55,352 nucleotides of DNA, from the NCBI GenBank assembly GCA_017881185.1, contig JADGRE010000010.1, positions 1 to 55,352 on the forward strand, read 5' to 3'. The stretch is from Pseudomonadota bacterium (GTDB taxonomy: Bacteria > Myxococcota_A > Polyangia > Polyangiales > JAFGIB01). Every line of letters starts with the position of its first letter. Position 1 is the first letter of the stretch. The notes beneath the pieces were generated by a model that saw only the letters and a program-made list of their open reading frames with translations, was not told the DNA's origin and ran no database searches. This document shows positions 1-45,272 of the stretch, in pieces. Both the position numbers and the translations under genes were made by a program.

Positions 1-1856
<1,856 letters not shown>

Positions 1857-1910
1857 CTACCGCCGCCGGCACCAGGGCTCGCAGCTCGGCGCCGCACGGC
1901 TCACGGCGGC

Positions 1911-2834
1911 TCACGGCGTGGCTGGCGCGGCCGCAGCCTTCGGGGTGGGCTTGTCGGGCATCGTGTGCTTCTTCCAAACGCGCTGGTTCAGCTCGTTCAG
2001 GCGCTTGAGCGCGTCAGGCACCAGGGCAGAGCGCGGCCAGCGGCGCCAGAGCAACTTGAGCGCATCGCGCGCGTCGTCGAGGTTGCCCACGTCTTCCGCA
2101 CACTGGCTGATCAACCACGCCGCGTCGTCCTGAAGATCTTTGTCGACGTTCTGCTCGAGCACGACCTTCGCGAGCACCTGTGCTTCGGCCGGGCGTCCTA
2201 GCTCGCGCAGCGCCTTCGCCAAGTTGTATTTCACCGCCGGGATGTGGGAGGCCTCTTCCTTCAGATGGATGGACTCGCGCAACTGCTCAGCAGCCTCGGC
2301 GTAGCGCCCGGTCGCCATCAAGTTGAGGCCGCTCTGGTAGGCGGTCACCGACAACTCGAGCCGGAACTTGTCCTCGGTGTCACGGAAAAACTCTTCCTCG
2401 GCCTTCGAGAGCTGTTCCTTGCGGATCTCCTCGTAGCCCTCCACCACCTTGGTCAGCTCTTTCTGGCGGATCAGGTTGTAGTAGGCGGTGGCCTTGGCTT
2501 CGGCCTGCTCGCGCTGCTCGCCGCGGCGGATCTCCTCGGCCAGGTCGCGGCGTAGCTCTTTGACCTCGCGCGTGAGCTCTTCTTTCTCGGACTCGATCTC
2601 GTTGATGCGCACGTCCGACCACAGCTTGAGGCCCACGAACGAGAGCGTAGCGAACAGGGCATACGCCACGGCGCTATTCCAATTGAAGCGACGCTCGTAG
2701 CTGGCCTGACGCTTGGCGATGGACTTGATGTCCGCCGCCAGCGAGTTGGTCAGGTTGTTCGTCTTGATGATCAAGCCGCGAGATTCGATGATCTCGGTCT
2801 TGATCTCGCGAATCTCGTCGTCGGCGTCGCGCAT
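1911..2834 (-). CDS. membrane-anchored coiled-coil/TPR protein
   Basis: Protein of 307 aa of unknown specific role. The N-terminal 40 or so residues are charged and helical (starts MRDADDEIREIKTEI). A single hydrophobic segment follows (around AYALFATLSFVGLKLW), then a strongly charged coiled coil (ESEKEELTREVKELRRDL), and then TPR-like helices (SGLNLMATGRYAEAAEQLRE, ALRELGRPAEAQVLAK). The tail is Pro/Ala/Lys-rich. The fold suggests a scaffold with its TPR part on one side of the inner membrane. I chose ATG at 2834; an upstream in-frame start at 2870 would only add 12 basic residues of low quality. No enzyme motif is visible. Confidence 0.75.
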   Translation of the reverse strand: MRDADDEIREIKTEIIESRGLIIKTNNLTNSLAADIKSIAKRQASYERRFNWNSAVAYALFATLSFVGLKLWSDVRINEIESEKEELTREVKELRRDLAEEIRRGEQREQAEAKATAYYNLIRQKELTKVVEGYEEIRKEQLSKAEEEFFRDTEDKFRLELSVTAYQSGLNLMATGRYAEAAEQLRESIHLKEEASHIPAVKYNLAKALRELGRPAEAQVLAKVVLEQNVDKDLQDDAAWLISQCAEDVGNLDDARDALKLLWRRWPRSALVPDALKRLNELNQRVWKKHTMPDKPTPKAAAAPATP

Positions 2835-2930
2835 TGGCGGCTTCGTAACGTGGCGCTGCCGGCACCGCAAGCCGGCGACCGGCCGCGGTCAGCGCCGTCC
2901 GAACGCTTGGCGCCCGGGGCGGGACGCGGC

Positions 2931-2959
2931 TTGACGACCCCTGCCCGACCGCCTAAAAG
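2931..2959 (+). promoter_or_regulatory. sigma-70-type promoter before the lipoprotein gene
   Basis: TTGACG at 2931-2936, a 17-nt spacer, and TAAAAG at 2954-2959. The start codon of the next gene is at 2984, giving a short leader of about 17 nt that carries AGGAAA as ribosome site. Read by eye against the TTGACA/TATAAT consensus; not tested. Confidence 0.5.
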
Positions 2960-2983
2960 CGCTGCCTGCCGCCAGGAAATCGC

Positions 2984-3484
2984 ATGCAGCCCCGCCCCAC
3001 CGCCGTGCTTTCGGGCTCCAAGACGACCGTCGCGACGACCTTCGCGTCGGCGCCCAGAGTGACGACCAAGCTGACCGCCACTCTGGTCGTCGCGCTGGCC
3101 ACCTACACGCTCGTGGCCGGCTGTGGCAGCGACCGCTACATCGTCATCGGCACCACCAAGGCGCCGAGCGCCAGCGGTTTCGTCGAAATCGAGCACGACA
3201 ATGCCTCCGGGGCGACCTTCGAAGTGCACATGGAGCAGCTGCACCCGGTGAGCCAGCTCGACCCCTCCCGCGCTTGCTACGTGGTGTGGGTGGAGCAAAC
3301 CGGGCAGGCCCCTGCACGCGTCGGCGTTCTGCGCTACAACCCCGACGAGCGCTCGGGTGTGCTCAAGCACGCGCGGGCCAACAGCCGGAAGTTTGTCGTG
3401 AAGATCACGGCCGAAGCTACCCCCACCCCGAAAGCGCCGAGCGACTTCGCCGTTGCCAGCGAAGAGATCAAGCTGGACAACTGA
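2984..3484 (+). CDS. predicted lipoprotein, unknown function
   Basis: Protein of 166 aa. Hydrophobic segment LTATLVVALATYTLVAGC ends in a lipobox (LVAGC, Cys at about residue 47), so the mature protein is probably lipidated and surface or periplasmic. The mature part (about 120 aa) looks like a small beta-sandwich: GFVEIEHDNASGATFEVHME, CYVVWVEQTGQAPARVGVLRY. No family recognised with confidence. ATG at 2984 has AGGAAA 5 nt upstream but gives a long basic n-region of 29 residues; GTG at 3059 would give a more normal signal peptide but lacks a ribosome site. The gene is followed directly by a tandem repeat array and efp. Confidence 0.7.
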   Translation: MQPRPTAVLSGSKTTVATTFASAPRVTTKLTATLVVALATYTLVAGCGSDRYIVIGTTKAPSASGFVEIEHDNASGATFEVHMEQLHPVSQLDPSRACYVVWVEQTGQAPARVGVLRYNPDERSGVLKHARANSRKFVVKITAEATPTPKAPSDFAVASEEIKLDN

Positions 3485-3490
3485 GCACCA

Positions 3491-3589
3491 CGATCACGCA
3501 CCGATCACGCACCGATCACGCACCGATCACGCACCGATCACGCACCGATCACGCACCGATCACGCACCGATCACGCACCGATCACGCAC
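3491..3589 (+). repeat. 11-bp tandem repeat, nine perfect units
   Basis: Nine head-to-tail exact copies of CGATCACGCAC (3491-3589) fill the gap between the lipoprotein stop and the ribosome site of efp (AGGAG at 3591). The unit is not a multiple of three and lies outside the chosen reading frames. A partly related 'gagcacca' precedes the first unit. Perfect identity among copies implies recent or ongoing expansion. Confidence 0.95.
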
Positions 3590-3603
3590 CAGGAGAAGCC
3601 CGC

Positions 3604-4173
3604 GTGTACGACTTTTCGCAAATCAAGAAGAACCTGAAGGTCAAGCTCGACGGCGTGCCCTTCAACGTCGTGGATTTTCAGTTCGTCAAGCCGGGCAAGG
3701 GCAATGCGTTCACGCGTACCAAGCTGCGCAACATGCTGACGGGCGCGGTCATCGAGCGCACCTTCAAGCAGCACGAGAAGCTCGAGCCAGCCGACATGGA
3801 CGATCGCCAGATGCAGTTCCTCTACAAGGAAGGCGACTCGTACGTGTTCATGGACACCAGCAGCTACGACCAGCTGCACCTGAGCGCCGAGCAGCTGGGC
3901 GAGAACACGGGGTACTTGATCGACAACACCAACGTCGACGTGCTCTTCTTCAATGGTCAGCCCATCGGCGTGACGCCGCCCACCTTCGTGCTCATGAAGG
4001 TCATCCGCACCGAGCCCGGCTTCAAGGGAGACACCTCGGGCGGCGCCATGAAGCCCGCCACCATGGAGACTGGCCTGGCAGTGAACGTCCCGCTCTTCAT
4101 CAACGAAGGCGAGACGCTGAAGATCGACACGCGCACCGGCGAGTATGCCGAGCGCGTCAACATCAAGAAGTAG
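3604..4173 (+). CDS. efp: elongation factor P
   Basis: Translation factor of 189 aa that binds between the P and E sites and relieves ribosome stalling at proline runs. The family features are present: N-terminal KOW-like domain with the modification loop VKPGKGNAF (Lys32 at the tip), central OB domain (NVDVLFFNGQPIGVTPPTFV) and C-terminal OB domain (TGLAVNVPLFINEGETLKID). The start is GTG at 3604, 8 nt after AGGAG; the longer in-frame reading upstream is only the tandem repeat. Only two bases separate its stop from the ATG of epmA, so the two are co-transcribed. Lys32 is the residue expected to receive beta-lysine from EpmA. Confidence 0.97.
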   Translation: MYDFSQIKKNLKVKLDGVPFNVVDFQFVKPGKGNAFTRTKLRNMLTGAVIERTFKQHEKLEPADMDDRQMQFLYKEGDSYVFMDTSSYDQLHLSAEQLGENTGYLIDNTNVDVLFFNGQPIGVTPPTFVLMKVIRTEPGFKGDTSGGAMKPATMETGLAVNVPLFINEGETLKIDTRTGEYAERVNIKK

Positions 4174-4175
4174 TC

Positions 4176-5375
4176 ATGCAAGATCGCAGTGCAGCGCGTG
4201 AGCTGGCCGCGCGCAAAGCCGGCACGGCCGTGTGCTTGGCTGGACGCGTGGTTGCGCGTACCGAAGGCGGCTTCACGCTCCAAGACGACACCGGCTGCGC
4301 GCAGTGTCGTTCGAACACGGAAGTGAGCGTGGGCGCGTTCGTGTGCGTGCGCGGCAGCTGGGACGGCTCGCAGCTGTCGGCGGCAAGCGTGGAGCAAGTG
4401 AGCGCCGGCAGCGACCGCTTCATGCGCGGCGACAGCGACTTCAGCCAGCTGATGGGCAAACGCCTGTCGAACCTGCGCGCGCGCCACACGGTGCTGCAGA
4501 CCGCGCGTGCGTTCTTCGACGAGCAGGGCCTGCTCGAGGTGGATACGCCGGCGATCGTGCCGTGTCCCGGCCTCGACGTGCATCTGGACGCCATCGAGGT
4601 GCTGGGCATGGGTGCCCCGCGCTGGCTGCACACCAGTCCCGAGTACCAGATGAAGCGTTTGCTGTGCACAGGGCTGCCGGGCGTCTACCAGCTGGGCAAA
4701 GCTTTCCGACGCGGCGAGCGCGGCAAGCTGCACGAACCCGAGTTCACGATGCTCGAGTGGTACCGCAGCTTCGCCGGGGCGACCGAAGTCATGCGCGACA
4801 CCGAGGCCCTGGTGGCGCGCGTCGGCAAGCAGCTCACCGGCGGCAGCGCGCTGCCCGGCATGCAGCAACCTGTCGATGTCGCTGCGCCATGGGAGCGCAT
4901 CAGCGTCGCCGATGCCTTCACCCGCTATGCGGGCGTCACACTCGAGTCGGTCGTGCACGACGACGACAAGTTCTACCGAGTCCTGGTCGAGAAGGTAGAA
5001 CCCGAGCTCGGTCGCGGGCGTGCCACCTTTCTCACGCACTACCCTGCGCGCATGGCCTCGCTGGCGCGGCTTTCGCCCGGCGACGCCAACAGTGCGGAAC
5101 GCTTCGAGGCCTACCTGGACGGTGTGGAGCTGTGCAACGGTTTCAGTGAGCTGACCGACGCGGGCGAACAGCGCAGACGCTTGCAGGCAGATCAGGCGCT
5201 TCGGGGCAAGCTCGGGCGCTCGGTGTATCCGATCGATGAGCGCTTCATGTCCGCGCTCGACGATGGCATCCCCCCGAGTGGCGGCAACGCGCTGGGGATC
5301 GATCGCCTGCTCATGGTTGCGCTCGGCGCCAAGCAAATCGATGAAGTGGTGGCGTTCACCTGCGCGCGAGTCTGA
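4176..5375 (+). CDS. epmA: EF-P lysine ligase EpmA (PoxA/GenX) with extra N-terminal OB-fold
   Basis: Class II lysyl-tRNA-synthetase-like enzyme of 399 aa that activates (beta-)lysine and attaches it to EF-P rather than to tRNA. The catalytic core from about residue 97 follows EpmA closely: TSPEYQMKRLL, LGKAFRRGERGKLHEPEFTM (motif 2), GVELCNGFSELTD and ALGIDRLLM (motif 3). Residues 15-85 form an additional domain, with AGTAVCLAGRVVARTEGGF and TLQDDTG, which looks like the OB-fold anticodon-binding domain of LysRS. Classical EpmA (about 325 aa) lacks it. The core lacks the long inserts of true LysRS, and the gene sits directly after efp, which argues for EpmA. No epmB aminomutase is in this window. 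Confidence 0.92.
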   Translation: MQDRSAARELAARKAGTAVCLAGRVVARTEGGFTLQDDTGCAQCRSNTEVSVGAFVCVRGSWDGSQLSAASVEQVSAGSDRFMRGDSDFSQLMGKRLSNLRARHTVLQTARAFFDEQGLLEVDTPAIVPCPGLDVHLDAIEVLGMGAPRWLHTSPEYQMKRLLCTGLPGVYQLGKAFRRGERGKLHEPEFTMLEWYRSFAGATEVMRDTEALVARVGKQLTGGSALPGMQQPVDVAAPWERISVADAFTRYAGVTLESVVHDDDKFYRVLVEKVEPELGRGRATFLTHYPARMASLARLSPGDANSAERFEAYLDGVELCNGFSELTDAGEQRRRLQADQALRGKLGRSVYPIDERFMSALDDGIPPSGGNALGIDRLLMVALGAKQIDEVVAFTCARV

Positions 5376-5460
5376 ACCTGCTCAACCTGTCCCCCTGGAC
5401 TTGAGAATCGAAGCAGTTGTATGACCCGCGCCTGGGTCCAGTTGCCGGGGGCTGCAACGT

Positions 5461-5472
5461 GGCTAGGTAGCC
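5461..5472. promoter_or_regulatory. short dyad overlapping a possible -10 upstream of the DUF481 gene
   Basis: GGCTA-gg-TAGCC is a 5-bp inverted repeat. It overlaps a possible -10 (TAGGTA at 5464-5469), itself 16 nt after TTGCCG. Could be an operator or chance; the arms are short. Confidence 0.25.
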
Positions 5473-5528
5473 CACCTGCGCCTGCCTACGCGCACGCATC
5501 CCCGTGTACCGCCGAGCGAGGCTTGTAT

Positions 5529-6665
5529 ATGACGCCATGCAAATCCAACTTCACCCTGAGCACGATCGTGTGCGGAACGCTCCTGGCACTGTGCTGCAAC
5601 GCACAGCTTGCGCACGCACAAGCTACGGCCGGAACACCGCCGCCGGACGCGACAGCGTTGGTGGACGCTCCCAAAGGCGCAGCTGACGTGCCGAAGATCG
5701 AACACCCGGAAGACGGCACCAACGCGTCGCTGTCGGCCGGTGGCCAAGAGGCCAGCGGTAACTCGCGCTTGATCGCCGGTACCATCAACAGTGCGGCTGA
5801 CACGCGCTGGAACAAGAACGGTCTCGGTGGCTCGGTGCTCGGCAACTACGGCCGCAGCGGCCCGCCAGCAGGGAAGGTCGTGACCACTGCACAGAATATC
5901 CAAGGCCGCGTGCGCTACGACCGTTACGTGATCGAACAGGCCTCCGTGTTCCTCATCAACACCGGCCGCCACGATCGCTTCCAGGGCATCCAGTTTCGCT
6001 ACAACATGGACCCAGGCTTCAAGTACCTGTTCATCAACGAGGCTGCGAGCACGTTCTGGGCAGAAGCTGGCTACGACTTGCAGTACGACGTGCGCCGCAA
6101 CGATGCGCGCCTGGTGATGGGTTCGACCACACTGCTCGACAAGACCGCGACCGACCACTCGGCTCGTGGCTATCTCGGCATGAAGCACGCGTTCAACGCG
6201 AACGTGGCCCTGTCGAGCGGCTTCGAGCTCCTGCAAAGCTTGAAGACTGCCTCCCACACCCGCATCAACTACGACGCGTTGCTCACCGCCACGGTGGGCG
6301 CAGGCTTCTCGTTCGGCGTGGGCTTCGGCGCGCGCTACGACTACGCACCCTTGCCGGGCAAGAAGGACCTCGACACCGTCGCCACGGTCTCGGTGATCTA
6401 CTCGTACTCGAGCGCGGCGCAGCGCGACAAAGCGGCCGACGACGCAGCAGCCGCGCAGCCAACGGCGGCACCGTTAGAGGCCGCGCCTGCACCCGCACCG
6501 GCCGCGGAGCCTGCGGCACCTGCGGCTGCACCCGCAGCAGAAGCCGCGCCAACGCCCGCAGCGGAAGCCGCGCCCGCGCCGGCCGCTGCACCCGCGGCTG
6601 CCGCACCGGCTGCTGCTACACCCGCAGCTGCTGCAACGCCGGCCGCAGCCCCCAAGACTCCGTGA
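5529..6665 (+). CDS. DUF481 (YdiY-like) outer-membrane beta-barrel protein with Ala/Pro-rich tail
   Basis: Protein of 378 aa. A signal peptide (TIVCGTLLALCCNAQLAHA) is followed by a linker and then alternating beta strands typical of DUF481: RYDRYVIEQASVFLINTGRH, FRYNMDPGFKYLFI, ASTFWAEAGYDLQYDVR, HSARGYLGMKHAFNANVALS, FGVGFGARYDYAPLPGKK. The barrel ends near VSVIYSYSSAAQ and is followed by roughly 85 residues of almost pure Ala/Pro/Glu/Thr. I chose ATG at 5529 because it gives a clean signal peptide with GAGCGAGG upstream; 36 upstream codons look non-coding. Function in the family (a 'salt-induced' outer-membrane protein) is poorly defined. Confidence 0.8.
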   Translation: MTPCKSNFTLSTIVCGTLLALCCNAQLAHAQATAGTPPPDATALVDAPKGAADVPKIEHPEDGTNASLSAGGQEASGNSRLIAGTINSAADTRWNKNGLGGSVLGNYGRSGPPAGKVVTTAQNIQGRVRYDRYVIEQASVFLINTGRHDRFQGIQFRYNMDPGFKYLFINEAASTFWAEAGYDLQYDVRRNDARLVMGSTTLLDKTATDHSARGYLGMKHAFNANVALSSGFELLQSLKTASHTRINYDALLTATVGAGFSFGVGFGARYDYAPLPGKKDLDTVATVSVIYSYSSAAQRDKAADDAAAAQPTAAPLEAAPAPAPAAEPAAPAAAPAAEAAPTPAAEAAPAPAAAPAAAAPAAATPAAAATPAAAPKTP

Positions 6666-6673
6666 GGTGAGCC

Positions 6674-7105
6674 ATGTCCTTCTTGTCCGACTTCCAGAAG
6701 TTCGCGTTCAAAGGCAACGTGGTCGATCTTGCAGTCGGTGTCGTCATCGGCGGCGCGTTCGGCAAGATCGTCACCGCACTGGTGAATGACGCCATCATGC
6801 CACTGGTTGCGCTGGTCATGCCGAGCGGCGACTGGCGCGCCAGCGGCATCGTGTTGCGCGCGGCGGCAGACCCCAAAGACAACGTGATGCTGAAGTACGG
6901 CGACATGCTGGGCGCCGTCATCGACTTCCTGATCGTCGCGCTAGTACTGTTCCTGCTCGTGTCGCGCGTGGTGAAGTTCGCCGAGGGGCGCTTGCTCAAG
7001 TCGAAGCCGCCCGAAGCACCGACCACCAAGGAGTGCGCCTTCTGCCTGGAGAAGATCCCGCTGGCAGCAACCAAGTGCCGCGCGTGCACGTCGAGCGTCG
7101 CGTAA
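6674..7105 (+). CDS. mscL: large-conductance mechanosensitive channel MscL
   Basis: Inner-membrane pore of 143 aa that opens under membrane tension to protect from hypo-osmotic shock. First helix NVVDLAVGVVIGGAFGKIV and second helix MLGAVIDFLIVALVLFLLV match the family. The C-terminal tail carries two CxxC pairs (CAFC at about 122-125 and CRAC at about 137-140), a small zinc-ribbon-like end seen in many MscL proteins. ATG follows GAGGTGAG. It is 8 bp after the DUF481 gene, so the two may share a transcript, and is convergent with the next gene. Confidence 0.97.
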   Translation: MSFLSDFQKFAFKGNVVDLAVGVVIGGAFGKIVTALVNDAIMPLVALVMPSGDWRASGIVLRAAADPKDNVMLKYGDMLGAVIDFLIVALVLFLLVSRVVKFAEGRLLKSKPPEAPTTKECAFCLEKIPLAATKCRACTSSVA

Positions 7106-7120
7106 CGCCTGACTGACGCT

Positions 7121-7879
7121 TCAGTCCGGCGTGCCTGAACCCTTGCAGCCGCCCTGTGAGCAGTTGACCGACAGCGCCACGTTGTGACCGGGGCCGGGCA
7201 CCGCGAAGTTGAAGGTGCTCGGCTGACCCATCTCGACGCCGTTCTTGTCGAGCGGCTGGATGTTCACCTCACCGAGCTCGTCACCGGCGAGCTGGCGATC
7301 GACGTCGGGCACCGTGCGGTACTGGTCGGCGCCTTGGCCCACGAGCTTGCAGGGGACCTCGGTGTCGAGCAGCAGCGCGCTGCCGTCGTTGCGCCACGCC
7401 GTGATCGCAAAGCGATCGACGCCCGCGCTGTCGCAGGTGCCAAAGCCGAAGTTCCAGCGCAAGAGCAAGTGCGCCGGCGCCGCCGTCAGCATGATCGCGG
7501 GGTCGGCCACCACGGTGGTGCCGTTGCCGACGACGCTGACCGGCACTTCGCCGGCCTGCAAGCTGTCCATCACCGCGACGCCCTTGTTGTCGATGCCGAA
7601 CAGGCGCACGTGATAGCCGCCGGAAGGCACTTGCTCGAAGCGCACTTCACCGCTGTCGCACAGCGCCTCTTCGACGTACATCGGGTCGTCGAGCTCGGCG
7701 CGCACCACCTTCACGCCGAGGCTGCTGCAGTCCTTGTGATTGCCCAGCTCGTACGGCACGACCAGCACGCCGGCCTTGGGGTCTTCCTTGCCGCCGCAGG
7801 CGAGCCCGAGGCCGCTGATGATGGCGAGGGTCGCAGCAGTGCGTAGCCGGCGATTCATGAGCAGTGCGAGCATCAACAT
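7121..7879 (-). CDS. predicted lipoprotein, unknown function
   Basis: Protein of up to 252 aa. Lipobox after a hydrophobic stretch (ATLAIISGLGLACGG). The mature part contains several Cys (DCSSLG, ALCDSG, GTCDSAG, NCSQGGC) and looks like an extracellular beta-rich domain, with EVRFEQVPSGGYHVRLFG resembling carboxypeptidase-regulatory-like segments. It ends in a Cys/Gly-rich tail. ATG at 7879 has GGGAG 10 nt upstream; ATG at 7858 (MNRRLRTAATL) gives the better signal peptide but has no ribosome site. No family assigned. Confidence 0.7.
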   Translation of the reverse strand: MLMLALLMNRRLRTAATLAIISGLGLACGGKEDPKAGVLVVPYELGNHKDCSSLGVKVVRAELDDPMYVEEALCDSGEVRFEQVPSGGYHVRLFGIDNKGVAVMDSLQAGEVPVSVVGNGTTVVADPAIMLTAAPAHLLLRWNFGFGTCDSAGVDRFAITAWRNDGSALLLDTEVPCKLVGQGADQYRTVPDVDRQLAGDELGEVNIQPLDKNGVEMGQPSTFNFAVPGPGHNVALSVNCSQGGCKGSGTPD

Positions 7880-8036
7880 GGCGAACTATCTCCCGAGCCA
7901 CCGCGCAACGAGGGTGCTCTGATGTAAGACTAGCGGCACACATGTAGGACCTCAAAATTTCGACAAGCCCACGCTCGGCACTTCGTGAGAAACGCCTGTC
8001 AAATCAATACGTTATGGAGGCGCTCTGGAAACGGGC

Positions 8037-8828
8037 TCAGGAACCGTGCTGCGCCTTGGCAGCCTGCCAGAGCGCATCGAGTGCCTCGGGGCTGAGGGCC
8101 GAGAGCGCGCTGCCGCTGTCGGCGGCGGCTTGCTCGACGGCGCGCACGCGGGCCCCGAAGCGATCGAGCGTTCCGCGCAGGGCCGCTTCCGGATCGACGC
8201 TCGCCTTGCGCGCCACGCTGACCAGCGCGAAGAGCACGTCGCCCAGCTCGTGCTCGATCGCGCGCGCATCGCCCGAGGCCAGCGCTTCGTCGAGCTCGCC
8301 CAGCTCTTCGTCGACCTTGCTGCGCGCGCCGGCGAGGTCCGGCCAGTCGAAGCCGACACGGGCGGCCTTGTCGCCGACGCGGCTGGCGCGCAAGAGGGCG
8401 GGCAGTGCCTTGGGCACACCGTCGAGCACGCCGCGCCCCTGCTTTTCCTGGGCTTTGATGACTTCCCAGTTGGCGAGCACTTCGCTCGTGCCGCTCACCT
8501 GGACGTCGCCGAACACGTGCGGGTGCCGACGCACGAGCTTGTCGCAGATGGCGGCGACCACGTCGTCCGGGCCGAACCAACCTTGCGCCCGGGCAAGCTC
8601 CGACTGAAACACGATCTGCAAGAGCAGATCGCCCAGCTCCTCGCGTAGCTCCTCGGGCGAGCCACTGTCGATGGCGTCGACCACCTCGTGCGCCTCCTCG
8701 GTGACGTAAGGGCGCAGCGTTTGCAGGGTCTGCTCGCGGTCCCACGGGCAACCGCCGGGCGCGAGCAGGCGCTGCATGATCTCGACCAGGCGCGTGAGAC
8801 TGCGACCGTCCTGTTCCGGCAACGACAT
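8037..8828 (-). CDS. mazG: MazG nucleoside triphosphate pyrophosphohydrolase
   Basis: Protein of 263 aa that hydrolyses NTPs to NMP and pyrophosphate; in other bacteria it cleans aberrant nucleotides and can affect ppGpp levels. Two MazG domains are visible. The first has CPWDREQTLQTLRPYVTEEA and EELREELGDLLLQIVFQ (EExxE-x12-ExxD-type metal site); the second has KVDEELGELDEAL and EHELGDVLFALVSVAR. Start at ATG 8828; a long upstream frame in the same phase runs antisense to holB and is not real. The gene is divergent from the TetR regulator that begins 141 bp away. Confidence 0.95.
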   Translation of the reverse strand: MSLPEQDGRSLTRLVEIMQRLLAPGGCPWDREQTLQTLRPYVTEEAHEVVDAIDSGSPEELREELGDLLLQIVFQSELARAQGWFGPDDVVAAICDKLVRRHPHVFGDVQVSGTSEVLANWEVIKAQEKQGRGVLDGVPKALPALLRASRVGDKAARVGFDWPDLAGARSKVDEELGELDEALASGDARAIEHELGDVLFALVSVARKASVDPEAALRGTLDRFGARVRAVEQAAADSGSALSALSPEALDALWQAAKAQHGS

Positions 8829-8969
8829 GGTCGCGCAATGTAGAGGGAGGAGGCCCCCGGCGCAAAGGCCAGCCGGCCCGCTTGACCTGGCGCGGCTGAG
8901 CCGGCACTTAAGGCACTCCCTTTGCGCTGCGGCGGGCTCATCCCGCGCCACCCACGGAGCCCCGCCATC

Positions 8970-9599
8970 GTGCGCTACAAGAAGTCGGAGATCAGCGTCG
9001 CCCACATCGTGGAGGCCGCCATGCGCGTGCTGGCACGCCAGGGCTACGCGCACTCGAGCTTGATGGACATCGCCAACGAGGTCGGCATGTCCAAGGGCGC
9101 GGTGCATTACCACTTCCCCACCAAGGAAGCGCTGATCGGGCAGGTGCTCGAGACGGCCTGCGATGCGGTCGCCGAGCGCACGCGCAAAGCCTGGACCGAG
9201 AGCGACAATCCCATCTTGGCGATGCGCTCTGCGCTGCACGAGCTGTGGCGCGTGCGCGCTGAGCTGTCGAACGAAGCCAAGGTCGTGGCCGACTTGCTCG
9301 CGCAGAGCTTGCACGACGACAAGCTGCGCAAGCCGCTGGCTGCGTACTACCGCTTCGCGTCCGCACAGGTCGAAGAACACATGCGCGTGAACGCCGAAGC
9401 CTTCGGGCTGCGACCGAAGATCGATCCCAAGCTCATCCCGCGCATCCTCAATGGCTTGCTCGACGGCTTGCTCATGCAGCGCATCGTCGATCCCGAGTCG
9501 GTGCGCGACGAAGACGTGACGCAGGCCCTGGAGATCCTCGCCGCGTCGCTGTTCGAGCTGGCGCCGCCGGCCGAAGGCGCCAAGCCGAAGGGCGCGTAG
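8970..9599 (+). CDS. TetR/AcrR-family transcriptional regulator
   Basis: DNA-binding repressor of 209 aa. The N-terminal helix-turn-helix reads IVEAAMRVLARQGYAHSS, MDIANEVGMSKGAVHYHFPT and KEALIGQVLE, the usual TetR pattern with the YHF recognition end. The C-terminal ligand domain is not specific enough to name a ligand. The start GTG at 8970 puts the HTH at the expected distance; the longer reading starts with TTG. It lies 9 bp before holB, possibly in one transcript, and is divergent from mazG; neither is an obvious target. Confidence 0.9.
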   Translation: MRYKKSEISVAHIVEAAMRVLARQGYAHSSLMDIANEVGMSKGAVHYHFPTKEALIGQVLETACDAVAERTRKAWTESDNPILAMRSALHELWRVRAELSNEAKVVADLLAQSLHDDKLRKPLAAYYRFASAQVEEHMRVNAEAFGLRPKIDPKLIPRILNGLLDGLLMQRIVDPESVRDEDVTQALEILAASLFELAPPAEGAKPKGA

Positions 9600-9608
9600 G
9601 AGCGGCCG

Positions 9609-10601
9609 GTGTCCTTCGACGACATCCTGGCGCAAGCGAGCGCGCTGCAGACCTTGCAGCGCGCGCTGGAGCGCGACCGCCTGGCGCACGCGTACTTGTT
9701 CGAGGGACCGAGCGGCGTCGGCAAACAGAAGACTGCGATGGCCTTGGCATGCGCCCTGCTCTGCCCCGAACAACCCAAGCTCGGTTGCGGCAGGTGTTCG
9801 GTGTGCGTGCGCGTGCTGGAAGGCAAGCACCCGGACGTGCGCGTGTTCGGCCCGCGCGACGAAGGCAACCGCAACCTGCAGGTGGAGCTGGTGCGCGAGG
9901 AGATCCTGCCCTTCGCGAAGTTCGCGCCCTTCGAGGCGAAAGCGGCGTGTGTGATCTTCCCGGAAGCCGACGTGTCGTTTCCCGTGCAGCACGCCGAAGC
10001 CGCGAACGCGCTGCTCAAAACGCTGGAAGAGCCGCGCGCCAACGTGACCTTCTTGCTGTTGTCCGAACGCCCTGATCGGCTGCTGCCCACCATCCGCTCG
10101 CGCTGCCAGCCGGTGCGCTTCGGCGCACTGCCAGCATCGGTGGTGAAGGAGATCATGCGTGCACGCGGCATCGACGAGGCGGCGATCGAGCTGGCCGCAG
10201 GGCTCGCGTTCGGCAGCGCCGATCGCGCGCTGTCGCTGGCGCAAGACGGTCTCGCCGAGCGCTTGCTGCAGTTTGCGTTGCAGGTCGACGCAGCCGTGCA
10301 GGCGCGCAGGCCGGGTGCATTGCTCGAGCTCGCCGACGAGCTGGCAGGCAGCGACGACCGCGCTCTGTTGCTCGACGCGCTGCGCTTGTTCTACCGCGAC
10401 GTCGCAAGCTGCGCCGTGCTGGGTGACGAGGCACCGCTAGCCTTCGCCGCGCACGCGGAGCTGATCCGCAAACGCGCCGCCACATTGGGCGCAGCCCGTG
10501 CCGCCGACCAACAGCGCGCCATCGCAGTCACCTGCGAGGCCATGGAGCGCAACGCCAACCCAGAAGTCGCACTCGACGCACTGTTCTTCTCGTTTGCCTG
10601 A
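9609..10601 (+). CDS. holB: DNA polymerase III delta' subunit (clamp loader)
   Basis: AAA+ subunit of the clamp loader, 330 aa. Visible motifs: Walker A GPSGVGKQKT (about residues 34-43), zinc site residues in CGRCSVC, a Walker-B-region segment and the SRC motif in PTIRSRCQPVRF, and ALLKTLEEPRANVTFLLL, which is typical for DnaX/HolB proteins. The retained Walker A and SRC plus the position before metG fit HolB rather than DnaX, which would be longer. GTG start after GGAGCGGCC. Confidence 0.92.
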   Translation: MSFDDILAQASALQTLQRALERDRLAHAYLFEGPSGVGKQKTAMALACALLCPEQPKLGCGRCSVCVRVLEGKHPDVRVFGPRDEGNRNLQVELVREEILPFAKFAPFEAKAACVIFPEADVSFPVQHAEAANALLKTLEEPRANVTFLLLSERPDRLLPTIRSRCQPVRFGALPASVVKEIMRARGIDEAAIELAAGLAFGSADRALSLAQDGLAERLLQFALQVDAAVQARRPGALLELADELAGSDDRALLLDALRLFYRDVASCAVLGDEAPLAFAAHAELIRKRAATLGAARAADQQRAIAVTCEAMERNANPEVALDALFFSFA

Positions 10602-10632
10602 GCGCCACGAGCACACCACACACAACCCGGGA

Positions 10633-10661
10633 TTCGACTCGCCCACGGAACGCGCTAAGCT
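10633..10661 (+). promoter_or_regulatory. promoter before metG
   Basis: TTCGAC (10633-10638), 17-nt spacer, TAAGCT (10656-10661). metG starts at 10686, leaving a leader of about 18 nt. The -10 follows the TAnnnT pattern found before several other genes here. Confidence 0.4.
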
Positions 10662-10685
10662 CGCCGGCCCGAGCGAGCCCCAGCG

Positions 10686-41396: not shown

Positions 41397-41870
41397 ATGT
41401 GGCGCGCAGGGCTGGTGATCATCGCCGTCGGCGTCTGCGCCTGCGGCCCGACCGAGCAGAGCGGCGTGCTGGGCACCGTGCAACTCGGCGACAATTTCGT
41501 CGCCCCGGACCTGCAACTCGATGACGTGTTCTTCTACTGCCGCATCCAGCCCGAGGTCCTGACCAAGCATGGCTGCGCCAACGGCGGCAGCGGGGAACAG
41601 GGCCAGTGCCACGACAGCCGCTCGGCGCTGCGCTTGATCGCTACGAAAGACGCTGCGCCGTGCGACAAGATGGGCGCGCTCGTAGGTATGCCGTCGGCGG
41701 ACTACGTCGCGAATCTCGATGCTGTGCGCTTCTTCGTGCAGAGCGACCCGCTGACCAGCCCGCTCTACCTGCGACCGGTGAACCAGGCGTCGCACCCGCG
41801 CAAGATCTTCGACGACACCGACCCAGCAGCAAAGCTGATCGTGCAGTGGATCTCGGCGGGGGCAAGGTGA
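41397..41870 (+). CDS. Cys-rich lipoprotein, first gene of the envelope cassette
   Basis: Protein of 157 aa. Signal peptide and lipobox LVIIAVGVCACG (Cys16). The mature part has four further Cys and one Cys-His: DVFFYCRIQPEVLTKHGC, GEQGQCHDSRSALRL and APCDKMG, then SPLYLRPV, SHPRKIFDDTDPAAK and LIVQWISAGAR. The ending 'D..A...I..WI..GA' and the SPLY/L segment recall the planctomycete-type cytochrome C-like domain, but the normal CxxCH is spread to C-x11-CH, so haem binding is unsure. ATG at 41397. Its stop overlaps the GTG of the next gene (GTGA). Confidence 0.7.
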   Translation: MWRAGLVIIAVGVCACGPTEQSGVLGTVQLGDNFVAPDLQLDDVFFYCRIQPEVLTKHGCANGGSGEQGQCHDSRSALRLIATKDAAPCDKMGALVGMPSADYVANLDAVRFFVQSDPLTSPLYLRPVNQASHPRKIFDDTDPAAKLIVQWISAGAR

Positions 41871-42682
41871 ACGAGCGCTACACGTCGGCTGTCGCGCTGA
41901 CTTTCGGTGGCTTCGTTCGAGCCACCTGTCTCCTGCTCTGCACGTGCGGCTCCTGGTTGAGCGGCACCAGCGGCGCGCGAGCGAACGATGCCGACGTCGA
42001 GGTCTATGCGCGCGTTGTCGTGAGCACCGCCAGCGTGCGAGCGGGCCCGAGCACGACCTACCGACAAATCTACCGCGCGCGCCACGACGAGGTGTTTCCC
42101 GTGCGCGGTCGCGCCACCAGTGGCTATTGGTTTCGGATCGAGCTGCCGGATGCGACCGAGGGCTACATTCAGGGCGACGCGGTTTACAACCATGAGGTGG
42201 GGGAAGCGCAAGCCAAGAGCGGGCGCTTCTTGCCTGCAGTGTTCGCGCCACCACCGCTGCCGAGCGCGCACGGGGAGATTGCGTTGATCGGTGGCGCGCT
42301 CGGTGCCGGCGGGTTCGTGGCGCTGCGTCCGGCTTGGCTGCTCGACCCGAGCTTCGGCATCGAGCTCACCGCGGGCGCATCCGTCGCGCGCGGCGGTCGG
42401 CTCATGATGTTGCTCGCGGGGCCGGTCGTGAATTTCTTTCCACGCTCGCCGATCGTGCCGTTCGCGAGCTTGGCCGGTGGGGTGGTGAGCAGCAGCCCGA
42501 ACGCAGATACCTTCCTGCTGAAGTCCGGCAGCGTGAGCGCCGCGAGTGCCGGCTTCGGCCTGCGCATCGGCTTCCGCTATCGGCTCACGCTGCGCCTCGA
42601 AGCGCGCAGCTACGTGTTGTTCCAGGCCGATCGCTACGTACCCGAGGAGGAATTCAGTGCTGGACTCACGGTTTTCTTCTGA
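41867..42682 (+). CDS. SH3-domain protein fused to an outer-membrane beta-barrel-like region
   Basis: Protein of 271 aa. Signal-like N-terminus (CLLLCTCGSWLSGTSGARA), then a bacterial SH3b domain (VSTASVRAGPSTTYRQIYRA, VRGRATSGYWFRIELPDATE, GYIQGDAVY) that usually binds peptidoglycan or peptides. Alternating strands follow (GSVSAASAGFGLRIGFRYRL, TLRLEARSYVLFQADRY), ending AGLTVFF with a terminal Phe, the usual signal for outer-membrane barrel insertion. GTG at 41867 overlaps the previous stop; its own 3' end overlaps the start of the DUF4266 gene by 26 bp. Second gene of the cassette. Confidence 0.75.
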   Translation: MNERYTSAVALTFGGFVRATCLLLCTCGSWLSGTSGARANDADVEVYARVVVSTASVRAGPSTTYRQIYRARHDEVFPVRGRATSGYWFRIELPDATEGYIQGDAVYNHEVGEAQAKSGRFLPAVFAPPPLPSAHGEIALIGGALGAGGFVALRPAWLLDPSFGIELTAGASVARGGRLMMLLAGPVVNFFPRSPIVPFASLAGGVVSSSPNADTFLLKSGSVSAASAGFGLRIGFRYRLTLRLEARSYVLFQADRYVPEEEFSAGLTVFF

Positions 42683-42899
42683 GCGGACTTGGCGCTGGAT
42701 CTCTGGGCTGCTGCTGCTGACGGCGGCACTGGGCGGCTGCGCGACCGTGCGACCGGAGGAGAAAGAATTTCTCGCCGAGCCCGCCATGACCTGGAGTAGC
42801 GGCGGCATCGCCAAGGAGCACGAAGACCACGTGATCGAGAACCGCGAGGGCTCGTTCGGCGCCAACAATGCCCACGGAGGCGGTTGCGGATGCAACTGA
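42657..42899 (+). CDS. DUF4266 small lipoprotein with C-terminal GGGCGCN
   Basis: Protein of 80 aa. Lipobox in ISGLLLLTAALGGC (Cys28). The mature 53 residues match the DUF4266 pattern: ATVRPEEKEFLAEPAMTW, HEDHVIENREGSFGANNA and the invariant-looking end GGGCGCN. GTG at 42657 follows a strong GAGGAGG 5 nt upstream, which fixes the start inside the previous gene. The mature peptide is tiny, has His/Glu residues and two terminal Cys, suggesting metal binding or a modified tail. It overlaps the DUF3570 gene by 10 bp. The family's function is not established. Confidence 0.85.
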   Translation: MLDSRFSSERTWRWISGLLLLTAALGGCATVRPEEKEFLAEPAMTWSSGGIAKEHEDHVIENREGSFGANNAHGGGCGCN

Positions 42900-44131
42900 G
42901 GTTCCCGCAGCTCCGTGCCGGTGTCGGGAACGCGTGCGCGCTCGCGCTCGCGCTGCTCGTGCCGCTCTCGCTGAGCTTCCCGGGCAAGGCGCACGCCGAA
43001 GACGGGATCGCTGTGGGCAGCTCGATCTTTCGAGAGACGGGCGGACCATTGCACATGACAGTGCTCGTGCCGACTGCGAAGGCGAGCAAGGACATCGGCG
43101 AGGCAGTGACCGTACGCGCGGGTTGGACTGCAGACGTGGTGAGCGGTGCGAGTGTTGCCGTGGTGGACGCGCCGGCTGCGAAGGTGGACGCCATCAGCTC
43201 CGCGACCGTCACCGACACGCGGCACGCGTTCTCGGGCGGCGTCGAGCTGCACGACGGGCCGTCCGCCCTGGGCGTTGGCTACACGCATGCTTTCGAGAAC
43301 GACTACCTGTCCAACGCGTTCGACGTGAGCGCGCGCACCGAGCTCTGGGACCACGACACCCTGCTCGAGATCTCGTATGCGCGAGCGTTCGACGAGGTGT
43401 GCGACTTGGCTGGCGCGTTCGACCCGGTGATGAAGCCGCGCCTGGATTCGTCGAAGGGCTGCTTCAGCGATTTCAAGACGCGCCGGGATCGCGACCTCGA
43501 CATGCACACCTGGCAGGCGTCGTGGACGCAGGCGCTCACGCCCGTGCTCAGTTTGCAGGTGACGGGAACGGCACAGCTGAGTCACGGCTTTCAATCGAAC
43601 CCGTACCGTGCCGTGCGCATCGGCAGGACCGCCGCGCAAGAACACCACCCGATCGACCGGGCACGTTATGCGCTCGGAGCCGGCCTGCGACTGTGGCTCG
43701 CACCACTGCGCGGGGCCTTGCAGACCTACGCGCGGGCCTACCGGGACACCTGGGACATCACGTCGATCACCGGCGAGCTCGCCTACGATCAGACCTTGAT
43801 CGGACAGCTGCGGCTGCGCGGGCGCGCACGCTACTACACCCAGACTGCGGCGGCGTTCTACTCCGACGACTACGTGCTCGACCCGCACGGACAGTACTTC
43901 ACGGGCGACCGCGAGCTGTCCGACATGCAGAGCTTGCTCGCCGGGGCCGCGCTGCTCTGGTCCGCGCCCACCGACGACAACGGGCACGTGCTCGCGGTGT
44001 TGTCCGGTTTCGAGCTCACGCTCAAGGGCGACGTGCTCAAGACCTACTTCGATCACTTCCACTACGACAAGGCCGCGGTGCCCAACACCATGGCGCTGAT
44101 CGGCTCGGTCGAGCTGCACGGCATGTTCTGA
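42890..44131 (+). CDS. DUF3570 outer-membrane protein
   Basis: Protein of 413 aa. Signal peptide (ACALALALLVPLSLSFPGKA) and a beta-barrel-like body: VSGASVAVVDAPAAKVDAIS is the DUF3570 signature near the N-terminus, then FSGGVELHDGPSALGVGYTH, LYARAY-type strands such as GALQTYARAYRDTWDITS, RGRARYYTQTAAAFYSDDYV, ending LIGSVELHGMF with C-terminal Phe. Two Cys (EVCDLAG, KGCFSDF) may form a disulfide. ATG at 42890 has GGAGG 9-10 nt upstream and overlaps DUF4266. DUF3570 and DUF4266 are known to occur side by side in diverse bacteria; the function is unknown to me. Confidence 0.85.
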   Translation: MQLRFPQLRAGVGNACALALALLVPLSLSFPGKAHAEDGIAVGSSIFRETGGPLHMTVLVPTAKASKDIGEAVTVRAGWTADVVSGASVAVVDAPAAKVDAISSATVTDTRHAFSGGVELHDGPSALGVGYTHAFENDYLSNAFDVSARTELWDHDTLLEISYARAFDEVCDLAGAFDPVMKPRLDSSKGCFSDFKTRRDRDLDMHTWQASWTQALTPVLSLQVTGTAQLSHGFQSNPYRAVRIGRTAAQEHHPIDRARYALGAGLRLWLAPLRGALQTYARAYRDTWDITSITGELAYDQTLIGQLRLRGRARYYTQTAAAFYSDDYVLDPHGQYFTGDRELSDMQSLLAGAALLWSAPTDDNGHVLAVLSGFELTLKGDVLKTYFDHFHYDKAAVPNTMALIGSVELHGMF

Positions 44132-44142
44132 GTTGGCCGCGC

Positions 44143-44171
44143 TTGCGCCGCGCAGCGGGGCTGCATAGGGT
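44143..44171 (+). promoter_or_regulatory. promoter before manC, leaderless-type spacing
   Basis: TTGCGC (44143-44148), 17-nt spacer, TAGGGT (44166-44171), 6 nt, ATG at 44178. The gene has no ribosome site in front of its ATG, consistent with leaderless translation. Confidence 0.45.
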
Positions 44172-44177
44172 TCGCGC

Positions 44178-45272
44178 ATGGATGAGGTCTTTGCGGTCAT
44201 CATGGCCGGGGGTTCTGGAACCCGGTTCTGGCCACTGTCACGCAGCGCTTGGCCCAAGCAGTTCCTGGCTCTCGCGGATGCCGGCAGCGGCAGCGCGGGC
44301 GAGTCGCTTCTGCAGCAGACCGTGCGCCGGCTACAGGGTGTAGTTGCGCCCGATCACGTGCTGGTCGTGACCTCGCACCGCCACGCGCAGGCCACGCGCG
44401 AACAGCTGCCCGAGCTGCCACCAGGCAACGTGCTCGGTGAGCCGGAGGGCCGCAACACGGCGCCTTGCATCGCCTGGGCGGCCGCCCACGTGGCAGCGCG
44501 CGCCCCCAAAGGCGTGATGGCTGTGCTGCCAGCCGACCCGCACATCGCCGACCCGGTCGCGTACCGGGCCGTGCTCGGGCGCGCCATCGCGGCCGCGCGC
44601 GAGGGGGGCCTCGTGACCATCGGGGTGACTCCGACGCGACCAGAGACCGGCTACGGCTACATCGAGGTCGGCGAAGCACTGGGGGCCGGGGGCGTCAAGC
44701 GCGTCAAGCGCTTCGTGGAGAAGCCTGATCTCTACCGCGCACAACAATTCGTTGCAGATGGCAACTTCCTCTGGAACAGTGGCATGTTCTTCTTCCGGGC
44801 CGACATCGTGCTCGGCGAGCTCGAACGGCAGCTGCCAGACCTGCACGAATTCGCGCGCGCCTGTCAGAAGCAGCTGGCGCAAGGCGGCGGCGCTGACGAA
44901 GAGCTGGTGCACTCGCGCTACGCCACACTGACGTCGATCTCTATCGACCACGGCGTGATGGAAAAGGCGCAAGACCTGCGCGTGGTGCCGGGCACCTTTG
45001 GTTGGTACGACATCGGCAGCTGGACCACCGCGTACGAGCTGGCGCACAAGGATGCCGAGAAGAACGCCGTGCAAGGTGAGGCCTCGCTGGTCGACTCGCA
45101 GGGCTGCTACGTGCGCGGCGAGGCCGGCAAGCTCATCGCCTTGATTGGCGTGCGCGACATGGTGGTAGTCGACACCGAGGACGCGCTGCTCATCATGCCG
45201 CGCGAGCGCGCACAAGACGTGCGACGCGTGGTCGAGGCTCTGAAGGCCAAGAAGGCCACGAAGTATCTATAG
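44178..45272 (+). CDS. manC: mannose-1-phosphate guanylyltransferase
   Basis: Makes GDP-mannose from mannose-1-phosphate and GTP for surface polysaccharide or glycan synthesis. 364 aa, so only the nucleotidyltransferase part without the isomerase domain of the bifunctional ManC/AlgA. Motifs: MAGGSGTRFWPLSRSAWPKQ, EPEGRNTAPCIAWAA, VLPADPHI, RPETGYGYIEVG, FVEKPDLYRA, NFLWNSGMFFFRA and FGWYDIGSWTTAY. The gene ends in the first unit of a 12-bp repeat and is followed by manB. Confidence 0.95.
   Translation: MDEVFAVIMAGGSGTRFWPLSRSAWPKQFLALADAGSGSAGESLLQQTVRRLQGVVAPDHVLVVTSHRHAQATREQLPELPPGNVLGEPEGRNTAPCIAWAAAHVAARAPKGVMAVLPADPHIADPVAYRAVLGRAIAAAREGGLVTIGVTPTRPETGYGYIEVGEALGAGGVKRVKRFVEKPDLYRAQQFVADGNFLWNSGMFFFRADIVLGELERQLPDLHEFARACQKQLAQGGGADEELVHSRYATLTSISIDHGVMEKAQDLRVVPGTFGWYDIGSWTTAYELAHKDAEKNAVQGEASLVDSQGCYVRGEAGKLIALIGVRDMVVVDTEDALLIMPRERAQDVRRVVEALKAKKATKYL

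Follow-up and report, generated by a model that had tools for sequence, protein, structure and literature searches.

Positions 41397 to 44131 of the 55,352-nucleotide stretch analysed here (the window, which is contig C286 in an assembly of 6.0 Mb and 410 contigs) hold four overlapping genes, and they raise the question of whether these genes form one system and what such a system would do at the cell envelope. The first-pass annotation of this DNA had suggested that they form a complete outer-membrane system, and a multi-component system of this kind proved to be real. Their features are given below.

41397..41870, + strand: gene 1, outer-membrane lipoprotein with lipobox Cys16, a cytochrome-like C60...C71-H72 motif, distal His133 and the extra Cys48 and Cys89
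41574..41612, + strand: C60...C71-H72 motif of gene 1 (CX10CH here), invariant, with spacing from CX4 to CX13 over the orthologues
41867..42682, + strand: gene 2, an exported protein with an SH3b domain and, after it, a small outer-membrane beta-barrel whose last residue is Phe
42026..42181, + strand: SH3b domain of gene 2 (about residues 54-105), SH3_3 match
42657..42899, + strand: gene 3, DUF4266 lipoprotein with lipobox Cys28 (PF14086, 1.7e-14)
42876..42896, + strand: GGGCGCN tail of gene 3 with the CXC motif, invariant in 61/61 and 60/60 loci
42890..44131, + strand: gene 4, DUF3570 protein modelled as a 16-strand outer-membrane beta-barrel, predicted ApbE substrate (PF12094, 6e-29)
43133..43153, + strand: first putative flavinylation motif of gene 4, D82-VV-SGAS88 (D82, G86 and A87 in 58/58 of the operon clade)
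43187..43207, + strand: second putative flavinylation motif of gene 4, D100-AI-SSAT106 (D100 and A105 in 58/58 of the operon clade)
43400..43402, + strand: clade-specific Cys171 of gene 4 (58/58 of the operon clade, 0/24 other DUF3570)
43460..43462, + strand: Cys191 of gene 4, the partner of Cys171 and likewise specific to the clade (58/58 of the operon clade, 2/24 other DUF3570)

The ORF coordinates agree with overlaps of 4, 26 and 10 bp between consecutive genes, all on the + strand, and the four genes were confirmed as encoding exported proteins. Two of the products are lipoproteins, as had been claimed, with the lipoboxes VCAC16 (gene 1) and LGGC28 (gene 3); the DUF4266 protein has 53 residues after lipidation and the GGGCGCN end, and both barrels finish in Phe (FF in gene 2, F413 in gene 4). 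The overlap of 10 bp between genes 3 and 4 is not conserved throughout: among the 55 loci in which the frame stays open there, the position is ATG, GTG or TTG in 43 and CTG in 12. A promoter scan of the operon found none, and terminator-like sites were not informative. On the - strand, an antisense ORF of 830 codons (window 41765-44257) lies over genes 2 to 4; in DNA as GC-rich as this, codon usage is the most likely reason for it.

To examine conservation of the arrangement, we used a class set of 61 loci, comprising 60 loci taken from the 106 gene-2-positive genomes and the window. The ordered, same-strand set of genes 1-2-3-4 was found by a strict test in 58 of the 61 loci, and in the three loci that failed it a gene-1-like ORF is still in place in the gene calls. 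A second set of 68 named loci, which overlaps the class set and owes most of its misses to contig ends, contained the ordered unit in 57 loci. The four-gene arrangement thus occurs far more than chance would give. The neighbour analysis of orthologous loci also showed that the genes flanking the operon differ from family to family; since the flanks change while the four-gene order stays, the conservation belongs to the unit itself. The first-pass annotation had asked whether an SH3-barrel gene and a Cys lipoprotein gene recur beside DUF4266-DUF3570 and whether the terminal Cys residues are conserved; the former do recur (the same 58/61 loci), and GGGCGCN is invariant in all 61 and 60 loci. The operon is a real conserved system over class Polyangia (Myxococcota), in which named relatives place the window genome near Sandaracinaceae.

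The genome-wide locus scan was made with DUF3570 as the query. In the maximum-likelihood tree of DUF3570, the operon members form one clade (support 100/100, stem 0.74). Four rows labelled 'paralog' fall inside this clade, two of which are contig-edge loci (L130 and L171) and two rearranged loci (L163 and L164). At the rearranged loci gene 1 adjoins gene 4, and DUF4266 is on the opposite strand. Gene 1 is present in L163 and was recovered by a six-frame search in L164, and gene 2 was not found at either of these two loci.

DUF4266 and DUF3570 can no longer be counted as families that lack an assigned function. Meheust et al. 2021, eLife (PMC8238504) described ApbE-DUF3570-DUF4266-thioredoxin(-DsbD) flavinylation clusters. 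They showed that ApbE flavinylates the Chlorobium luteolum DUF3570 protein at two [ST]GA[ST]-like motifs; DUF4266, its partner with a C-terminal CXC, co-occurs in such clusters with thioredoxin-like proteins and DsbD. Beyond this paper, our literature search found none that names the DUF3570/DUF4266 families. Like the clusters of Meheust et al. (PMC8238504), the Polyangia operon encodes a DUF3570 protein with two [ST]xA[ST] motifs and an adjacent exported DUF4266 protein with a CXC tail; unlike them, it contains no ApbE, thioredoxin or DsbD, and it has a fixed CXnCH lipoprotein, a fixed SH3b-barrel and an extra invariant Cys pair in DUF3570. The best reading of the operon is a variant of the known ApbE-DUF3570-DUF4266 flavinylation system. 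Its earlier naming as a candidate for an undescribed system appears to hold for the two new fixed partners but not for the module itself, which is not categorically new; its value lies in these partners, in the distinct DUF3570 clade and in the compactness of a testable unit.

Gene 4 scored 101 bits with the DUF3570 profile (PF12094; cut-off 25, E 6e-29). Its AlphaFold model (pLDDT 87.5) has 16 long strands, and a Foldseek search with the model matched outer-membrane porins and AlgE (best E 3e-8). Given the even strand number, the terminal F413 and the signal peptide, gene 4 is predicted to be a porin-like outer-membrane barrel. Both [ST]GA[ST]-like motifs of a DUF3570-type ApbE substrate were found in gene 4 and are kept in 58/58 orthologues: D82, G86, A87, D100 and A105 are invariant in the operon clade, and Ser or Thr occupies positions 88 and 106 throughout (58/58 each). 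The first motif reads SGAS88 and the second, SSAT106, is without the central Gly. Judging from these motifs, gene 4 is a predicted ApbE substrate. In the model the two motifs bracket the strand 3-4 loop, and most of the long loops come after odd strands and most of the short turns after even ones (one exception, 359-372), suggesting that, with a periplasmic N-terminus, the motif loop faces outward or is folded into the lumen. The whole operon clade (58/58 sequences) has Cys171 and Cys191, and an aligned Cys is found in 0/24 and 2/24 other DUF3570 sequences, respectively; the operon DUF3570 appears to be a new, distinct clade with its own invariant Cys pair.

Gene 3 matched DUF4266 (PF14086) with 54.9 bits (cut-off 27; E 1.7e-14) and has the C-terminal CXC. 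Its orthologues are lipoproteins in every case in which the full signal region was called. Gene 2 has an SH3_3 match (Pfam, E 6e-7), and its terminal F271 is invariant in the alignment. Its C-terminal part weakly resembles the small barrels of OMP_myx_plus (TIGR04565; E 0.0055, far below the family cut-off), from which it differs by the added SH3b domain. Gene 2 is single copy per genome and occurs in 106/290 class genomes; outside the class its profile score falls from 264 to 48 bits, and the matches are then mostly to SH3 domains only. The full-length protein is class-restricted in this sample, and the SH3b-barrel appears to be an undescribed, class-restricted partner.

The first-pass annotation had asked whether ApbE or thioredoxin-like genes occur elsewhere in DUF4266 loci; the genome encodes ApbE, thioredoxin and DsbD, but the operon contains none of them. 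No ApbE, thioredoxin-like or DsbD gene was found beside the operon in the window, and around the orthologous loci none is a recurrent neighbour. The genome's single ApbE gene lies on another contig, C398 (E 1e-77). ApbE was found in 100/106 gene-2-positive genomes and in 133/184 gene-2-negative genomes (Fisher p 1e-6, a value that ignores kinship and comes from genomes of uneven completeness). Two nearly complete genomes, G117 and G216, have the operon and gave no ApbE match.

Gene 1 gave no match in Pfam or NCBIfam, cytochrome families included. In the orthologue alignment, C60, C71, H72, P127, H133 and W151 are invariant; Cys48, Cys89 and the lipobox Cys16 come close to invariance. The spacing from Cys to the Cys-His pair is CX10CH in the window and ranges from CX4CH to CX13CH among the orthologues; the known spacings for covalent heme are 2-4 residues and, in special cases, 15-17. 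By hhalign, the gene 1 profile matched an alignment of cytochrome-like CX4CH lipoproteins from beside other DUF3570/DUF4266 loci in Polyangia (alignment A7, corresponding to no Pfam family) with 98.9% probability and E 1.3e-17, whereas single sequences compared with individual CX4CH proteins gave weak results, the match being strong only with an alignment. Gene 1 shares with these lipoproteins [FY]xCxVxPxL...C..CH and a later [KR]P...H...W, with nearly full-length homology, and differs from them in the variable and mostly longer spacing. The CX4CH motif of its relatives and of some of its orthologues is like that of TIGR01904 (CxxxxCH/CxxCH c-type cytochrome domain), although gene 1 itself gave no match to this model.

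The AlphaFold model of gene 1 (pLDDT 78.8) runs helix, CXnCH, helix, H133 loop, helix, an order that could fit a derived mono-heme cytochrome. A Foldseek search of the model against the PDB returned no cytochrome and no meaningful match; the PDB sequence search gave chance-level matches only for gene 1 and one weak mono-heme cytochrome (E 0.56) for its relatives. The window genome encodes cytochrome c maturation proteins. When CX4CH genes near and far from non-operon DUF3570/DUF4266 loci were compared using a wider profile, p was 6e-5; as those very loci had supplied the profile, this value is partly circular, and with the gene-1 profile alone the difference was weaker (7/151 versus 1/174, p 0.02). 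Since the spacing varies from 4 to 13 and Foldseek found no cytochrome, heme on gene 1 is uncertain, and we place it somewhat below even odds. With its invariant C...CH and distal His, this lipoprotein appears to be a further undescribed partner.

From these results we propose, with a probability of roughly 0.55, that the operon makes an outer-membrane electron-transfer module around a flavinylated barrel. ApbE, encoded elsewhere in the genome, would attach two FMN to gene 4, at D-x-x-[ST]GA[ST] and D-x-x-[ST]xA[ST] flanking the strand 3-4 loop, and this loop would lie on the surface side or be folded into the lumen. The lipoproteins of genes 3 and 1 probably sit in the outer membrane's inner leaflet. 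They would carry electrons between periplasm and flavins via thiol-disulfide exchange, and a heme route through gene 1 would be added if gene 1 still binds heme. The small barrel of gene 2, with a periplasmic SH3b, may serve as a peptidoglycan anchor or may hold the lipoproteins at the barrel. The operon conservation, both motifs, the invariant cysteines, the barrel fold and the class restriction come from sequence and prediction; assembly into a single complex, the membrane topology, and electron flow and its direction are what we infer from them.

The proposal is supported by the flavinylation of C. luteolum DUF3570 (PMC8238504) together with the retention of both motifs in 58/58 sequences, by the 16-strand model with the motifs at the strand 3-4 loop and its porin and AlgE matches, and by a gene order that is kept while the flanks change, within a DUF3570 clade supported at 100/100. 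The frequency of ApbE in gene-2-positive genomes (100/106, compared with 133/184 of the others), the homology of gene 1 to CX4CH lipoproteins adjoining other DUF3570/DUF4266 loci, and the distant locus L175, which joins DUF4266, DUF3570, a CXnCH lipoprotein and ApbE, point in the same direction. It is weakened by the lack of ApbE, an inner-membrane electron donor, thioredoxin and DsbD in the operon, by the operon-bearing G117 and G216 without an ApbE match, and by the gene 1 spacing of 4 to 13, which is unusual for covalent heme, with no cytochrome match in the PDB.

The electron-transfer module could also operate without heme. If gene 1 has lost it, the system would be one of thiols and flavins only, a variant compatible with the flavinylated barrel and one to which we give nearly an even chance. 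The DUF4266 CXC would then relay electrons or disulfides and reduce or form the Cys171-Cys191 pair in the barrel, the four cysteines of gene 1 would be structural disulfides, and His72 and His133 would hold a metal or nothing. The variable spacing (CX4CH to CX13CH), the lack of a Pfam, NCBIfam or Foldseek cytochrome match for gene 1 and the invariant, clade-specific Cys171 and Cys191 favour this variant, as do the thioredoxin and DsbD carried by known DUF3570/DUF4266 clusters (PMC8238504) and by one paralogous locus in the window genome. However, both Cys, the next His and the distal His of gene 1 are invariant, as one would expect at a heme site, CX4CH is found in its nearest relatives, and the genome encodes cytochrome c maturation proteins.

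A more specific form of the electron-transfer module, a trans-outer-membrane conduit with covalent flavins in or at the mouth of a porin, fed by CXC and extended-CXnCH heme lipoproteins and encoded by a single-copy operon in many Polyangia, is in our judgement rather unlikely. Porin-cytochrome conduits (MtrCAB, Pcc), the textbook electron route over the outer membrane, link an outer-membrane barrel with redox lipoproteins. The operon likewise pairs such a barrel with candidate redox lipoproteins; in contrast to these conduits, to which no homology was seen, the barrel itself would carry the redox groups in the form of FMN, and none of the four genes examined encodes a multiheme cytochrome. If true, the flavin-bearing barrel would give electrons another route over the outer membrane. 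Flavinylation of DUF3570 is proven in C. luteolum, and the four-part single-copy operon offers a defined unit in which the role of such a barrel can be tested.

Two readings outside electron transfer have a small chance of being right. In metal uptake (e.g. of iron or copper), surface reduction by the flavins would be combined with binding to the CGC tail or to gene 1 and passage through the barrel. CXC tails and His residues are able to bind metals. A VIT1 iron transporter is present in 25 DUF3570 clusters (Meheust et al., PMC8238504), but no transporter or TonB-type receptor recurs at the operon, whose flanks differ between families. In the other, the operon would serve the structure or assembly of the envelope and play no redox part in this lineage, with SH3b as an anchor and the lipoproteins as barrel-assembly factors, which would fit the SH3b plus barrel architecture, the two lipoproteins adjoining two barrels and the absence of a local ApbE gene. 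Both flavinylation motifs, with Asp at -6, are nevertheless kept class-wide, whereas drift would be expected at a site out of use, and ApbE is enriched among operon-bearing genomes. The first-pass idea of a modified, exported peptide made from the short DUF4266 protein, with its invariant Gly/Cys-rich C-terminus, is hardly tenable, as this lipoprotein has a conserved mature region, the operon contains no peptide-modifying enzyme, and no modification or export enzyme of the kind expected for a RiPP recurs among the family-specific flanks in the neighbour analysis.

Besides those of the operon, the window genome carries three DUF4266 and four DUF3570 genes. One of these loci (L013) has the order thioredoxin, DUF3570, a 460-aa protein, DUF4266 and DsbD, and in another (L017) two cytochrome-like lipoproteins adjoin DUF3570. 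In a third (L014, 7740-9578, G000:C218), a protein with a sub-threshold DUF2271 match adjoins DUF4266-DUF3570 and also carries a CFI-box-CTERM domain. Such DUF2271-like proteins (about 600 aa, E 1.2e-5) adjoin DUF4266 and/or DUF3570 in several Polyangia (also L178, L181, L191 and L193). DUF2271 is another ApbE substrate, so that perhaps two different flavinylation substrates are encoded in one locus without ApbE.

The locus L175 (Pseudomonadota bacterium C12 bin, 1304-10682) contains, besides a gene-1-like lipoprotein, DUF4266, DUF3570 and ApbE, a thioredoxin-like protein, a beta-propeller protein and an 877-aa CXnCH protein, one stretch of which resembles hydrazine synthase alpha. Two or three CXnCH proteins are encoded at the non-operon DUF3570/DUF4266 loci L176, L177, L179, L180, L186 and L013, and a protein with 'FHTGSTF...YTGAP...CxxCH', which has no assigned family, recurs at such loci. 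Proteins of the CX4CH family also occur away from DUF3570 in the window genome, on contigs C220 (L196, 5116-6827), C229 (L197, 102-2447) and C402 (L198, 2-727); the one on C229 has a CXXCH motif in the same 781-aa polypeptide. A divergent DUF4266 gene with the end GAGCGCN (L015, 7214-7336, G000:C219) lies beside a long-branch DUF3570 gene.
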